NCBI GenBank assembly: GCA_029261965.1
Contig: JAJDAH010000025.1
Coordinates: 1-37,629, forward strand
From: Polyangiaceae bacterium
GTDB taxonomy: Bacteria > Myxococcota_A > Polyangia > Polyangiales > Polyangiaceae
Length of the DNA: 37,629 nt
Direction of reading: 5' to 3'
Shown here: positions 22,888 to 28,580 of the stretch, piece by piece
Layout: each line of letters opens with the position of its first letter
How positions within the stretch are numbered: the stretch's first letter is position 1
Program-made: the position numbers and the translations under genes
Notes under the pieces: model-generated
Told to the model about the DNA's origin: nothing
What the model saw: the letters and a program-made list of their open reading frames with translations, nothing else
Database searches by the model: none

Positions 22888-24513
<1,626 letters not shown>

Positions 24514-24526
24514 CTAATTCCTCCGA

Positions 24527-24817
24527 CTACTTTTCGATGACGCCGAGGACGTCGTCCTCGCGCAGGATGAGGTGTTCTTCGCCTTCGAGCTTGACCTCGG
24601 TGCCGGCGTACTTGCCGAAGAGCACTCGGTCGCCCTTCTTGATGTCGAGAGCGCGGACTTTTCCGTCCTCGAGAACCTTGCCATTGCCGACGGCGATGAC
24701 TTCGCCCTCGATTGGCTTCTCTTTCGCGGTGTCCGGAATGATGATCCCACCCTTGGTGGTCTCTTCTTCCTTGACGCGCTTCACGATGATGCGGTCCTGG
24801 AGCGGTCGAATTTTCAT
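24527..24817 (-). CDS. groES: Co-chaperonin GroES
   Basis: This 96-residue Hsp10 has the full family pattern: [15 protein letters not shown], the mobile loop [46 protein letters not shown] and [14 protein letters not shown]. It caps the GroEL ring. The ATG at 24815-24817 starts exactly at the family N-terminus; in-frame codons upstream are leader sequence. The gene is preceded by a leader of about 165 nt with a CIRCE operator, and followed by groEL. Confidence 0.97.
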
Positions 24818-24953: not shown

Positions 24954-24980
24954 TTGGCACTCGGCAAACGCGACTGCTAA
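24954..24980 (-). promoter_or_regulatory. CIRCE operator (HrcA site) of groESL
   Basis: TTGGCACTC and GACTGCTAA separated by exactly 9 nt match the CIRCE consensus (TTAGCACTC-N9-GAGTGCTAA) with one mismatch per arm. It lies just downstream of the predicted start site, the usual place for HrcA repression relieved by heat. Confidence 0.85.
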
Positions 24981-25022: not shown

Positions 25023-25190
25023 GCGGGCCAAATGGCACTTTCTTCAGACCTTCATTTCTCCATATTTTCGAGCGTTTACGTCGTGTGACCTCGGGCTCGG
25101 CCTCAGGGGCCTGTTCTGGCAGCCTCCCGGGGCGACTGCTAGGAAAGCGCCTTTGCCGCGCTCTTTTCGACCCCAAAAACCTAGGAAAAG

Positions 25191-25222
25191 CTCCAACTGA
25201 CCGTAAAATTTAGGGGTTGGAG
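25191..25222 (+). promoter_or_regulatory. Palindrome flanking a -10 hexamer
   Basis: CTCCAAC (25191-25197) and GTTGGAG (25216-25222) form a perfect 7-bp inverted repeat with an 18-nt spacer. The spacer contains TAAAAT (25204-25209), a 5/6 match to the -10 consensus. The geometry suits an operator over the promoter; a -35 is not obvious. Confidence 0.45.
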
Positions 25223-25231
25223 AGACAACGA

Positions 25232-25280
25232 GACACCGAGGCCCGAAGCCCCGCAACAAGGCGAGGGGAAGGCCGGTGTC
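25232..25280 (+). ncRNA. Structured leader hairpin upstream of unknown gene pair
   Basis: GACACC (25232-25237) pairs with GGTGTC (25275-25280), GGCC (25240-25243) with GGCC (25271-25274), and CCCC (25249-25252) with GGGG (25265-25268), extended by GC/GC around an AACAAG loop. Purine-rich bulges (GA, CGAAG/AA, GA) separate the stems. The element ends 16 nt before the Shine-Dalgarno sequence. It could be a cis-regulatory RNA or merely a stable leader; it does not match a riboswitch class I can name. Confidence 0.4.
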
Positions 25281-25308
25281 GCCCAGGAACCGAGACGGAG
25301 GGTCGCCG

Positions 25309-25926
25309 ATGAGTGAGACCTCAGCCGAGCCGAGCATCGATCTTGCGGCCGACCTCGACACGTTTTTCGAACAGGCGGTCAACGCTGCCGTCGAGCAATG
25401 TGGCTGCGAGACCACCGAAGCGTCGCGCTACTACCTAGTCGCGCTCCTGGCGGACTACGCCAAGCCGAACCCGCTCACCGGAGAAAATTTGAGCCGGCCA
25501 CTCACCCTCGCGCTCCATGAGGCGATGCACAAGGTCGGGCTCGAGCGCTTCGAGCATCTGCGCTCGCTCGGTGACGCGGTTCTATACACCCGGAGCTTTT
25601 TCGCCGACCACCTGACGAACCGAGGCGTCGAGCTCGACTACGTGTCGTCGCTCGGGGCGCGCGCCTACGACCAAGCCTCCGCGATGCTGCGGCGCGGATC
25701 GCTGGACGTGTCGTCCGACGTGTTCGGCGAGCTCGCCGACAACTTCTCCGCGTGTGTGCTGATCGTGAGCCACGTCGCCGACCAGCTCTACGCGCGGTCG
25801 GCGACCAGCGACCGCGCCATGCTCAAAGTCTACGAGCGATGGCTCCGGACAGGATCGAGCGCTCTGGCCGACGGTCTCGTTCAGAAGGGCATGATGCCGG
25901 TCGCCAACGACGGAACGGTGCATTGA
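25309..25926 (+). CDS. Uncharacterised protein, first of an overlapping pair
   Basis: This 205-residue protein has its start fixed by a strong GGAGGG 6-7 nt upstream of the ATG (an in-frame GTG at 25276 lies inside the leader hairpin). It is predicted soluble and mostly helical with no signal peptide. Notable stretches are DTFFEQAVNAAVEQCGCET, YYLVALLADYAKP, LTLALHEAMHKVG and RFEHLRSLGDAVLYTRSFFADH. No Walker, HTH, protease or nuclease motif is present. HEAMH resembles a metallopeptidase HExxH but sits in a helix without other support. Its stop overlaps the next gene. It lies directly beyond the groESL control region, transcribed away from it. I do not recognise a named family. Confidence 0.8.
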   Translation: MSETSAEPSIDLAADLDTFFEQAVNAAVEQCGCETTEASRYYLVALLADYAKPNPLTGENLSRPLTLALHEAMHKVGLERFEHLRSLGDAVLYTRSFFADHLTNRGVELDYVSSLGARAYDQASAMLRRGSLDVSSDVFGELADNFSACVLIVSHVADQLYARSATSDRAMLKVYERWLRTGSSALADGLVQKGMMPVANDGTVH

Positions 25927-26510
25927 CGAGCGATCTCGTCGGCGCGGACAGGACCGAGAGCCTGCTCCTATTTCAGCGACGGCTCGAACGATTCTACGGG
26001 CTCGAGTCGGCACCGGACGTCGTCGACTTCGTGAGAACGGGCACCAGCGACGACCGCGAGACGCTCTACGTGAAGCAGGAAGGCGACTCGCTCGAAGTGG
26101 CGTTGGTTCTGCCGGCGGAGTGCGACGCTTCGGGCGACGTGGAGCTCCAGCTCATCGAGGGCGTCAGTCACTTCGTGTATTTGGCAGAACGGGCGCGCAC
26201 CGAGTTGCCAACCACACGCCTCGAGCTCGAAATTCAAGCCGAGGTCGACAAGTTCGTCATGCTTTGGCTCAGCCGGGATCGCGTCGAGCCGGGATGGAGA
26301 CGGGCCGTGCGCGAGATGCTCTACGGCAACGTGCGTTTTCTTCATCCACCCCAGAGCGAGCCGGGAGCGCGCTACCGACTCGCCAATCGGCTCGCGGCCA
26401 AGCTGGTGACTGCCTTGGAGCGGCGGAGCGACCAGTCGGCGCAGAGCTCGCTCGTGCGCTTCTACCGTGCCGGCCAGGCCGAAAAGATTCGAATGGCGCG
26501 CGCCGCCTGA
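25923..26510 (+). CDS. Uncharacterised protein, second of an overlapping pair
   Basis: This 195-residue soluble protein starts at a TTG (25923-25925) that overlaps the stop of the previous gene (TTGA), so translation is probably coupled. It opens with LLLFQRRLERFYGLE, then a beta-strand-rich part (ETLYVKQEGDSLEVALVLPAEC), then helical segments (EGVSHFVYLAERART, LELEIQAEVDKFVMLWLSRD, YRLANRLAAKLVTALERR). There is no signal peptide or catalytic motif. Tight overlap with its partner argues that the two act together, possibly as a complex. The gene ends in a 13-bp palindrome shared with the convergent neighbour. Confidence 0.78.
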   Translation: MTSDLVGADRTESLLLFQRRLERFYGLESAPDVVDFVRTGTSDDRETLYVKQEGDSLEVALVLPAECDASGDVELQLIEGVSHFVYLAERARTELPTTRLELEIQAEVDKFVMLWLSRDRVEPGWRRAVREMLYGNVRFLHPPQSEPGARYRLANRLAAKLVTALERRSDQSAQSSLVRFYRAGQAEKIRMARAA

Positions 26511-26517
26511 GCCGGGC

Positions 26518-26805
26518 TCACTTCCGCGCGCCGTCCTCGCACGCGACCGTGATCACCCAGTTTCTCTGCGGGGGATACGAAAGACCATCTTGCTCCATGC
26601 CCTCGTTGAGCGTTTCGTAGTGGTCGCCGCACTTCTCGCGAATGGCGGTCCAGCATGGCGTGCGGTCATTGCGACAGAACGCCCGCCAAATCTGGCGCTT
26701 TTCCTTCGCGAAGTGTGAGTTGACGTTCTCGATCGTCACCTTCTGGGCCGTGCACGCGAACGTCACGACAAGAAGACCCAGACACAGCCCCAGAAGCTTC
26801 GACAC
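26518..26805 (-). CDS. Small Cys-containing lipoprotein
   Basis: This 95-residue protein uses a GTG start (26803-26805) and has a lipobox TFAC (Cys18). The mature part has four Cys (RAFCRND, TPCWTAIREKCG, TVACEDG) in a short, probably disulfide-bonded domain. I do not recognise a family. A perfect TATAAT lies 5 nt before the start codon, suggesting a leaderless transcript. It is convergent with the unknown pair and divergent from the DUF885 gene. Confidence 0.65.
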   Translation of the reverse strand: MSKLLGLCLGLLVVTFACTAQKVTIENVNSHFAKEKRQIWRAFCRNDRTPCWTAIREKCGDHYETLNEGMEQDGLSYPPQRNWVITVACEDGARK

Positions 26806-26816: not shown

Positions 26817-26866
26817 GGCACGGCATGCGGTCTCGAGCGACTTCCTCAGGTTGTCGTAGTGGCTGA

Positions 26867-26872
26867 TAGACT
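26867..26872 (+). promoter_or_regulatory. Possible -10 hexamer (TAGACT) for DUF885 gene
   Basis: TAGACT lies 7 nt before the GTG at 26880; a leaderless message from here supports that start over the GTG at 26859. Confidence 0.35.
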
Positions 26873-26879
26873 GGGCCCC

Positions 26880-28580
26880 GTGACCGAGTACGGCGACCTG
26901 TCCAGCGACTACCACGCGCACTTCACCCGCAATCCCAACGATTGCGTCCTCAAGGGAGTCGAGCGGCGTCTCGGGGATTTGCCTGACCCGAGTCGAGAGA
27001 CCGCCGACGACGAGGTCCGCGAAGCCGGGCAGTTGTTGGCCCGCGCCATGACGCTCGCCCACGGTAAAGAGCTCGACTTCGACGAGCGCCTCGACATCGA
27101 CCTCGCGGTTCTTTCTCTCGAAGCGGAGATCCATCGAAAAACCTACACCCTCAACGGCAAGCCTCACGCCACCCAGCTCCCGCGGGCGAGCGACGACATC
27201 GGCGACGGCATCTTCTTCATGTTCGTCAACGACCCACGGCCCGAAGCGGATCGGCTCGCCGACATCACCCGGCGAATCGAGCAAGTGCCGGACTACCTGG
27301 AAAGTGCCCTCGAACGACTCGACACGCCGGTCGACCGCTGGGTCGGTATCGACGTCGAAAAAGTGTCGGGACTGCCATCGCTCTTCGAAACGATGGAAGG
27401 TTGGGCAAACGACGTCGAGTGGCCCGACCGACGTCGCTTGAGCACCGCCCGCGCCGCAGCGGAGACCGCGCTCGCGTCCTACGCGGCACGGCTAGAAAAG
27501 ATGCCGACCACACGACAACTTCACGTCGGCACCGAGACGGCCCGCCGCATCGTGGAGCTGCGCGGTATCGACAAACCTCTGGAAGATCTCCACGGGTTGG
27601 CGCGGGAGTTTCTGGCAGAGACGAGCGACTCGATCGAACGACTGCGAGCCGGGCTGGCCCGCAAATACGAGCTCGGCGCAGACGCCAGCACGCAATCCGT
27701 TCACGACTTTCTCAACGACAGATATCGTGTCCGCGCCGGCGATGACTACTCCGTCGTGCTCGACCGGTACCGTGCGGAGCTCGATCGAGTCGTTCAGTTC
27801 GTGCGTGAGCGTGACTTGTTTCCGATATTCCCCGACCAAGAACTCACGATCCTGCAAACGCCGCCATTCATGGCGCCGAGCATCCCAGCCGGGGCGATGA
27901 CCTCCCCGCCGCCCTTTCGCGACGGCGTACGAAAGAGCCTCGTCTATCTGACCCTCAGCCCCGAGTTGCTCGACGAGCACACCGAGCTCGGCATCCCGGT
28001 GATGATCATCCACGAAGGAATTCCTGGCCATCACTTGCAATTGGCCACGGCGTCGAAACACCCGTCGATCATCCGTCGTCACTTCGACGCGATGGAACAG
28101 GCGGAAGGTTGGACGACGATGCTGGAGGACTACATGCTCGACATCGGATACCGACCCGAGCTGACCGACGAAATCCGGTTCTGCGCCAAGCGCGACATCA
28201 GCCGCATCGGCGCACGAGTCGCGATCGACCTCTTTTTCATGACGGGCGACAGATCGTTCCTCGACGTCGGTGTCGACGCCGACGTGTCGCCGACGGATCC
28301 CTTCGAAGCCGCTGGCAATCTGCTGGTTTCCGTCACGGGCTTCACGCCGGGGCGCGTGCAAGCCGAGCTCAACTGGTACTCGCAGGAGCGCGGCTACCCA
28401 CTCAGCTACCTGACGGGAAACCGACTGGTTTGGGATCTCAAACGGGACACGAAAAAGGCGCAATCCGATCGGTCCAGTGCCGACGTCGATCGCGCCTTTC
28501 ACCGCACGTTCCTGGAGGCGGGCAACATGCCGGTGACGTTTCTTCGCCGCGTGTTTCGCCACCGAGGCCTGGTGGATTGA
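26880..28580 (+). CDS. DUF885 family putative metallopeptidase
   Basis: This 566-residue protein matches the DUF885 family over its whole length. The signature HEGIPGHH (residues 378-385 from the GTG at 26880) is the putative zinc-binding, HExxxHH-like motif, flanked by the typical IPVMIIHEGIPGHHLQ. Other landmarks are an internal N-terminal (S..YHAHF) start, a helical central part (residues 150-330), a C-terminal Glu-rich region with EGWTTMLEDYMLD and the final LSYLTGNRLVWDLK. There is no signal peptide, so a cytoplasmic location is likely. Family members are thought to be peptidases or related hydrolases; the substrate is unknown. The gene is followed 55 nt later by an SDR gene on the same strand, possibly one operon. 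A GTG at 26859 would add 7 residues. Confidence 0.82.
   Translation: MTEYGDLSSDYHAHFTRNPNDCVLKGVERRLGDLPDPSRETADDEVREAGQLLARAMTLAHGKELDFDERLDIDLAVLSLEAEIHRKTYTLNGKPHATQLPRASDDIGDGIFFMFVNDPRPEADRLADITRRIEQVPDYLESALERLDTPVDRWVGIDVEKVSGLPSLFETMEGWANDVEWPDRRRLSTARAAAETALASYAARLEKMPTTRQLHVGTETARRIVELRGIDKPLEDLHGLAREFLAETSDSIERLRAGLARKYELGADASTQSVHDFLNDRYRVRAGDDYSVVLDRYRAELDRVVQFVRERDLFPIFPDQELTILQTPPFMAPSIPAGAMTSPPPFRDGVRKSLVYLTLSPELLDEHTELGIPVMIIHEGIPGHHLQLATASKHPSIIRRHFDAMEQAEGWTTMLEDYMLDIGYRPELTDEIRFCAKRDISRIGARVAIDLFFMTGDRSFLDVGVDADVSPTDPFEAAGNLLVSVTGFTPGRVQAELNWYSQERGYPLSYLTGNRLVWDLKRDTKKAQSDRSSADVDRAFHRTFLEAGNMPVTFLRRVFRHRGLVD

Follow-up and report, generated by a model that had tools for sequence, protein, structure and literature searches.

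A conserved gene pair adjoining groESL in a Polyangiaceae bacterium and its relatives encodes a predicted all-helical protein and a protein of gluzincin-like predicted fold

Introduction

GroESL is among the best-studied machines in biology, and the regulon of HrcA, the repressor that acts at CIRCE operators, is thought to be small. In Bacillus subtilis, misfolding stress titrates GroE and thereby inactivates HrcA. The described regulon comprises groESL and hrcA-grpE-dnaKJ. In a study of delta-proteobacteria, groESL is given as its sole constant member (PMC545781). The Myxococcus xanthus orphan response regulator MXAN_4468, encoded beside groEL2, is reported to act on the control of groEL2 and to strengthen HrcA binding; the second CIRCE of groESL1 is left unbound by the HrcA of this species (PMC9040617). 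Among described proteins, the group to be compared here is the gluzincin metallopeptidases (M1, M2/ACE, M3, DPP III and DUF885), which carry the motif HExxH.

We analysed one entire contig of 37,629 bases, referred to as the window, from the 9.6 Mb genome (480 contigs) of a Polyangiaceae bacterium; the nearest relatives with a name carry the labels Polyangiaceae, Polyangia or Myxococcales. Divergently from groESL, the window carries two small genes, here called A and B. Like the HrcA/CIRCE regulon, this locus sits at groESL in a genome that encodes hrcA (PF01628 match, 3.7e-49), and the same type of operator lies upstream of A in many relatives; unlike the known members of that regulon, A and B are not described as such in the literature covered, and the A-proximal site of the window is degenerate. 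As with MXAN_4468 at groEL2, unrelated genes lie next to a chaperonin gene, but MXAN_4468 is a response regulator (PMC9040617), and A and B have no match to such a domain.

Results

Gene layout and leader of A

A sequence-only reading of this DNA had presented A and B as two genes of no recognisable domain that overlap by TTGA at a TTG start, stand behind a Shine-Dalgarno sequence and point away from a CIRCE-controlled groESL operon. Coordinates and sequence agree with each of these points (Table 1), the overlap in the window being 4 nt, and neither window protein has a significant match in Pfam, NCBIfam, PHROGs or PADLOC. For groES, the list of open reading frames began at an earlier TTG start than the call given here. 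That reading took groESL and its CIRCE for a landmark; they are in fact the main clue to the pair.

Table 1. Features of the groESL/A-B region, in window coordinates
Feature	Position	Strand	Remarks
groEL	22888..24510	-	540 aa; divergent neighbour of A; Pfam Cpn60_TCP1 1.3e-82
groES	24527..24817	-	96 aa; divergent neighbour of A; Pfam Cpn10 1.5e-36
CIRCE element (HrcA operator) of groESL	24954..24980		16/18 arm bases
Second, degenerate CIRCE-like inverted repeat	25116..25142		12/18 arm bases; 166 nt before A start
7-bp inverted repeat framing TAAAAT (25204-25209)	25191..25222		not conserved
49-nt leader hairpin	25232..25280	+	not conserved
Shine-Dalgarno GGAGG	25297..25301	+	7 nt before ATG 25309
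Gene A	25309..25926	+	ATG start, 205 aa; all-helical (predicted), undescribed family
Gene B	25923..26510	+	TTG start, 195 aa; gluzincin-like predicted fold

The control elements proposed in the same reading fared differently. A perfect 7-bp palindrome on the -10 is indeed present, its arms (25191-25197 and 25216-25222) flanking TAAAAT, and so is the hairpin of the structured leader, but as conserved regulatory devices both were rejected, recurring in none of 13 relatives: the palindrome recurs in 0/13, and the leaders of these relatives have z scores from -2.43 to +1.52 with no common fold by eye. In the 281-nt region two perfect 7-bp inverted repeats are seen, and shuffled sequence gives 1.99 on average. 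Repeats that enclose a TAnnnT of any kind are less common (one seen, 0.023 expected), but this pattern was picked after the fact. The hairpin taken alone reaches -24.8 kcal/mol (z -3.4); folded over its full 106 nt, the leader does not stand out (z -1.37 and -1.44). A promoter scan returned no sigma-70-type promoter, and an Rfam search of the window at the gathering cut-off gave no match. A role of the palindrome-framed -10 or of the hairpin particular to this species could still exist.

Beyond B, a small ORF of 95 aa on the minus strand (26518-26805) has no Pfam match and begins, by eye, like a signal peptide. The second ORF after B (26859-28580, plus strand) encodes a DUF885 protein (Pfam 1.6e-57) that contains HEGIPGHH and belongs to the same gluzincin-like fold group that B resembles; its nearness to B is probably a coincidence, because a tblastn search of the 119 other loci yielded no relative. 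No tRNA was found in the window.

Families, distribution and pairing of A and B

The question of whether A or B belongs to a known housekeeping family was also put to their relatives, none of which has a significant match in Pfam or NCBIfam, the two libraries used for them. Scattered matches of single relatives in these libraries (E 0.001 to 1) are dismissed as chance, no family appearing in more than two members. Searches of the open-access literature on CIRCE/HrcA and groESL neighbourhoods found no description of the A-B pair, subscription literature lying mostly outside their reach; novelty is accordingly a statement about family libraries and open-access literature, and a prior mention elsewhere is possible.

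With the window A as sole query and its own genome counted, A is present in 22 of 30 relatives, at class level in 125 of 192 genomes and at phylum level in 124 of 282, at one place per genome in each case. A profile search of 143 phylum genomes found A in 66, B in 34 and both in 32, again at one place per genome wherever either was found. In all 32 genomes with both genes the listed coordinates show A and B adjoining, which bears out the proposed pairing; the expectation that homologues should not occur apart holds only in part, A standing without B in 34 of the 66 A-bearing genomes.

A start codon in the frame of B that overlaps the stop of A by 4 nt (NTGA) is available in 50 of 97 A-B rows (25 GTGA, 18 TTGA and 7 ATGA), or in 45 of 86 distinct A-B loci; one locus (L177) was excluded from this count, its B frame having been extended upstream. 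Such a start/stop overlap suggests coupled translation of A and B. Before alignment near-identical sequences were dropped, 72 of 79 A and 63 of 68 B sequences being kept; 60 of these 63 B sequences were given (L165, L166 and L177 omitted).

We conclude that A-B is a real, undescribed and conserved module, on grounds other than those of the sequence-only reading: what stood of its proposal of an undescribed regulated pair was the novelty, conservation and overlap, and what fell was control by palindrome and hairpin. Two small overlapping genes of no known family might also recall a toxin-antitoxin or phage-defence pair; such an identity is extremely unlikely, for the genes occur at one place per genome in wide conserved synteny with groESL, nothing in PADLOC, PHROGs or Pfam scores above cut-off for the window proteins, and A and B each also occur alone.

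Linkage to groESL

Linkage was scored in 120 rows, made up of the window, the 80 loci closest to it (the best 80 of 104 relatives, hence a biased sample) and 39 of 40 other stretches; the latter, with the window, form 40 rows chosen across the phylum from genomes with a match, many for their long contigs. The stretch omitted from this table (L109) is one where tblastn with the window A missed A; the profile finds both A and B there (G243). In 96 of the 120 rows (66 of the 80 nearest loci and 30 of the 40 phylum-wide rows) a divergent groES lies upstream of A at no more than 1.5 kb, which corresponds to 87 of 109 distinct A loci; the gap between the groES and A protein matches is 118-815 bp. 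Sorangium cellulosum So ce26 (L147) and Polyangium fumosum (L140) are examples of the full arrangement. At one locus (L094) A, B, groES and groEL all run in one direction, and at another (L119) groEL is split over three matches (388-537, 202-361 and 1-202), because the sequence is misassembled or the gene is broken.

Either gene can stand next to groESL in the absence of its partner. Eleven of the 87 distinct loci have A and groESL but lack B, and two of these end at a contig edge after A (L138 after 546 nt, L187 after 114 nt); conversely, in both genomes with B and no detectable A (L224 and L225), B is directly divergent from groESL with a CIRCE between them. Thus A and B are each tied to groESL independently.

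The gene for the omega subunit of RNA polymerase, rpoZ, lies near A in 13 of the 120 rows, that is, in 12 distinct loci (the rows in question being L090, L095, L097/L175, L094, L084-L087, L099-L101 and L174), suggesting an older gene order groESL - A(B) - rpoZ. Because A adjoins rpoZ in these loci, part of the groESL-A linkage may be old synteny. Carried to its end, this argument would reduce A-B to an ordinary conserved neighbourhood of groESL and rpoZ, held in place by a common promoter region and devoid of any functional link; in keeping with it, A is found elsewhere than at groESL in family f38 (L090, L095 and L096) and in four records titled Nitrospinota (L178), Nitrospira (L181), Oligoflexia (L183) and Acidobacteria (L185), the first two carrying both genes and the last two A only. 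However, A and B each stand beside groESL without the other, and CIRCE-like sites accompany A in five loci that lack groES within 1.5 kb, and we regard mere gene order as an unlikely explanation. In the Acidobacteria-titled record, A lies between genes whose translations, read directly rather than by family search, resemble relA/spoT and lon, a second stress/proteostasis neighbourhood for A.

CIRCE-like operators on the A side

A CIRCE of at least 14/18 arm bases lies in the intergenic region of 78 of the 87 distinct groES-linked loci, the other 9 being without one. A second site of at least 12/18 is present in 43 of the 87; in 40 of the 87 it stands between A and a CIRCE of at least 14/18, and 31 of these 40 reach at least 13/18. 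The chance expectation for a second site is about 0.1 per 96 rows from shuffles and about 2.2 per 87 loci from real flanking DNA. The second site of the window, CTGGCAGCC-N9-GACTGCTAG, is weak taken alone, real flanking DNA reaching its 12/18 with a probability of 0.035 per 600 nt. By analogy with M. xanthus, degenerate second sites may be inert, since HrcA of that species passes over the second CIRCE of groESL1 (PMC9040617).

Loci in which A has no groES within 1.5 kb upstream are informative here: of 21 that could be tested, six (L136, L149, L161, L163, L082 and L105) have a site of at least 13/18 within 600 nt of A, the background chance being 0.0035 per locus. One of them, L149, is cut by the contig end, and a groESL beyond that end may be what the site serves; the five others keep a CIRCE-like site, although at L136 groES is 2.1 kb away and has a CIRCE of its own. 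At L082, L161 and L163, A shares its direction with the closest credible gene upstream, so that A is the only evident target of the site (L161 also shows two short opposite-strand ORFs, apparently spurious). Within 600 nt of A, no site of at least 13/18 was found in the remaining 15 of the 21, which include the three f38 loci and the four records titled as other phyla or classes (L178, L181, L183 and L185).

Gene A encodes a predicted all-helical protein

The AlphaFold model of A is all-helical (pLDDT 90.8, pTM 0.85). Its invariant residues are chiefly aromatic, Gly and Leu, together with D89, a pattern that fits a role as a helical scaffold or binding protein. Fold searches gave no clear match, the best Foldseek hit having E 1.4 and the best VIA-align hit Z 8.2 over 87 residues; no fold was assigned, which is not evidence of a new one. 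Short phmmer matches to phycobilisome linkers (residues ~80-126, best E 4e-5) are treated as chance because the profile search gave E 0.33 or worse. The top profile match, sc-apCC-6-DPH-NR (E 2.1e-4), is summed over weak repeats and looks like a designed helical protein.

Gene B encodes a protein of gluzincin-like predicted fold

B is modelled with pLDDT 93.6 and pTM 0.90. Foldseek ranks the M3-type peptidase 3sks first (E 0.082, probability 0.99), with no match at E 0.001 or better; among the further hits are ACE/ACE2 and anthrax lethal factor, likewise zincins, as well as unrelated proteins. VIA-align places 3aho (Pz peptidase A) first, over 181 of 195 residues with an rmsd of 3.9 and a Z of 9.7, in a range (below about 13) where matches of mostly helical models may be due to chance; it is followed by M1, ACE/ACE2, DUF885 and DPP III, and the 50 rows listed are, judged by their titles, gluzincin peptidases or homologues (M1, M2/ACE, M3, DPP III and DUF885), matching the predicted fold over ~160-190 residues. 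With M3, the sole family compared by profile, hhalign gave a probability of 0.07 percent. The consistent identity of the matches and their near-full coverage of the model speak for a real gluzincin likeness; the M3 profile comparison does not, and would count against it.

Nineteen positions of B are invariant in all 61 aligned sequences, including E79, S82, H83, F84, E101, E103, Q105, A106, E107, D109, K110, R150 and Y151. The HExxH motif of gluzincins is absent from all 61, which have ExxSH instead. In the model, E79 and H83 lie four residues apart in a helix that follows a beta hairpin, the same spacing as that of the two His in HExxH; from H83 to E107 there are 24 residues, and 25 in M3 sequences (hand count). 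The corresponding zinc-ligand spacing in ACE is 24. From this register, E79 would replace the first His of HExxH and position 80 would be the site of the general-base Glu, and a putative metal site would probably be formed by E79, H83 and one Glu (E107 or E103) in the following helix.

The two divergent copies found without A (L224 and L225) also have ExxSH and keep E79, S82, H83, E103, Q105, E107, D109, R150 and Y151. Six of the 19 invariant positions are altered in at least one of them (Q18, F84, E101, A106, K110 and K188), F84 and K110 in both, and E101 and A106 in L224.

Given this constellation, B could be a zinc peptidase that is active despite its atypical site, with A as adaptor, the pair degrading unfolded proteins. 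The gluzincin-like predicted fold over nearly the whole chain and the conserved E/H/E set fit such an activity, as does the catalytic-Glu position being Glu in L178 and in both B-only copies (EExSH). Heat-shock proteases commonly work beside chaperonins. Against this stand the loss of HExxH throughout the alignment and the Gly that occupies the catalytic-Glu position in 60 of the 61 aligned sequences, and we consider an active peptidase very unlikely. We do not assign B to the gluzincin metallopeptidases, because HExxH is absent and neither Pfam nor the profile comparison with M3 shows a sequence relation: B is only 195 aa long, reads ExxSH where gluzincins read HExxH, and has no detectable sequence similarity to M3.

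Discussion

We give about even credence to the reading of A-B as an HrcA-linked proteostasis pair tied to GroES-GroEL and made up of a helical A and a gluzincin-like B. Under this proposal, heat or misfolding stress would titrate GroE, and HrcA would be inactivated. Through the CIRCE elements between the two units, HrcA probably holds down transcription both ways; its inactivation would lift this repression, and GroESL and A-B would be made together. Probably translated together by way of their overlap, A and B would be produced in similar amounts. A would act as the helical binding or scaffold protein of the pair, and B as a small gluzincin-like protein, probably metal-binding, in which HExxH has turned into ExxSH; the two would probably form a complex acting on GroEL clients, on GroEL partners or on GroEL itself.

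The placement of the pair could also be read in another way. Genes placed divergently from their target are typical of local regulators, and A-B would fit this description as modulators of groESL expression, for example as HrcA cofactors. A precedent exists at groEL2 of M. xanthus, whose neighbouring response regulator is reported to strengthen HrcA binding (PMC9040617). But neither protein has a significant DNA-binding match, TetR-family and PlcR rows appearing only at Foldseek E of at least 2 or at Z 4.9; B is conserved like an enzyme; and A is retained, alone or together with B, at loci that have no groESL in the surrounding 1.5 kb. A modulator role therefore seems quite unlikely to us.

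A more far-reaching form of the proteostasis-pair reading, which we hold to be unlikely, would add A-B to the chaperonin system as a new branch under HrcA control. In it, the metal site of B would be rebuilt (Glu-x-x-Ser-His plus Glu) and serve a chemistry other than classical peptide hydrolysis, and A would deliver B to GroEL or its clients.

A widespread and unannotated gene pair at groESL, often with an overlap and a CIRCE-like site, makes the idea of a hidden partner of the chaperonin directly testable, and the B family would stand out for its uncommon conserved site among proteins of a fold known for zinc peptidases.
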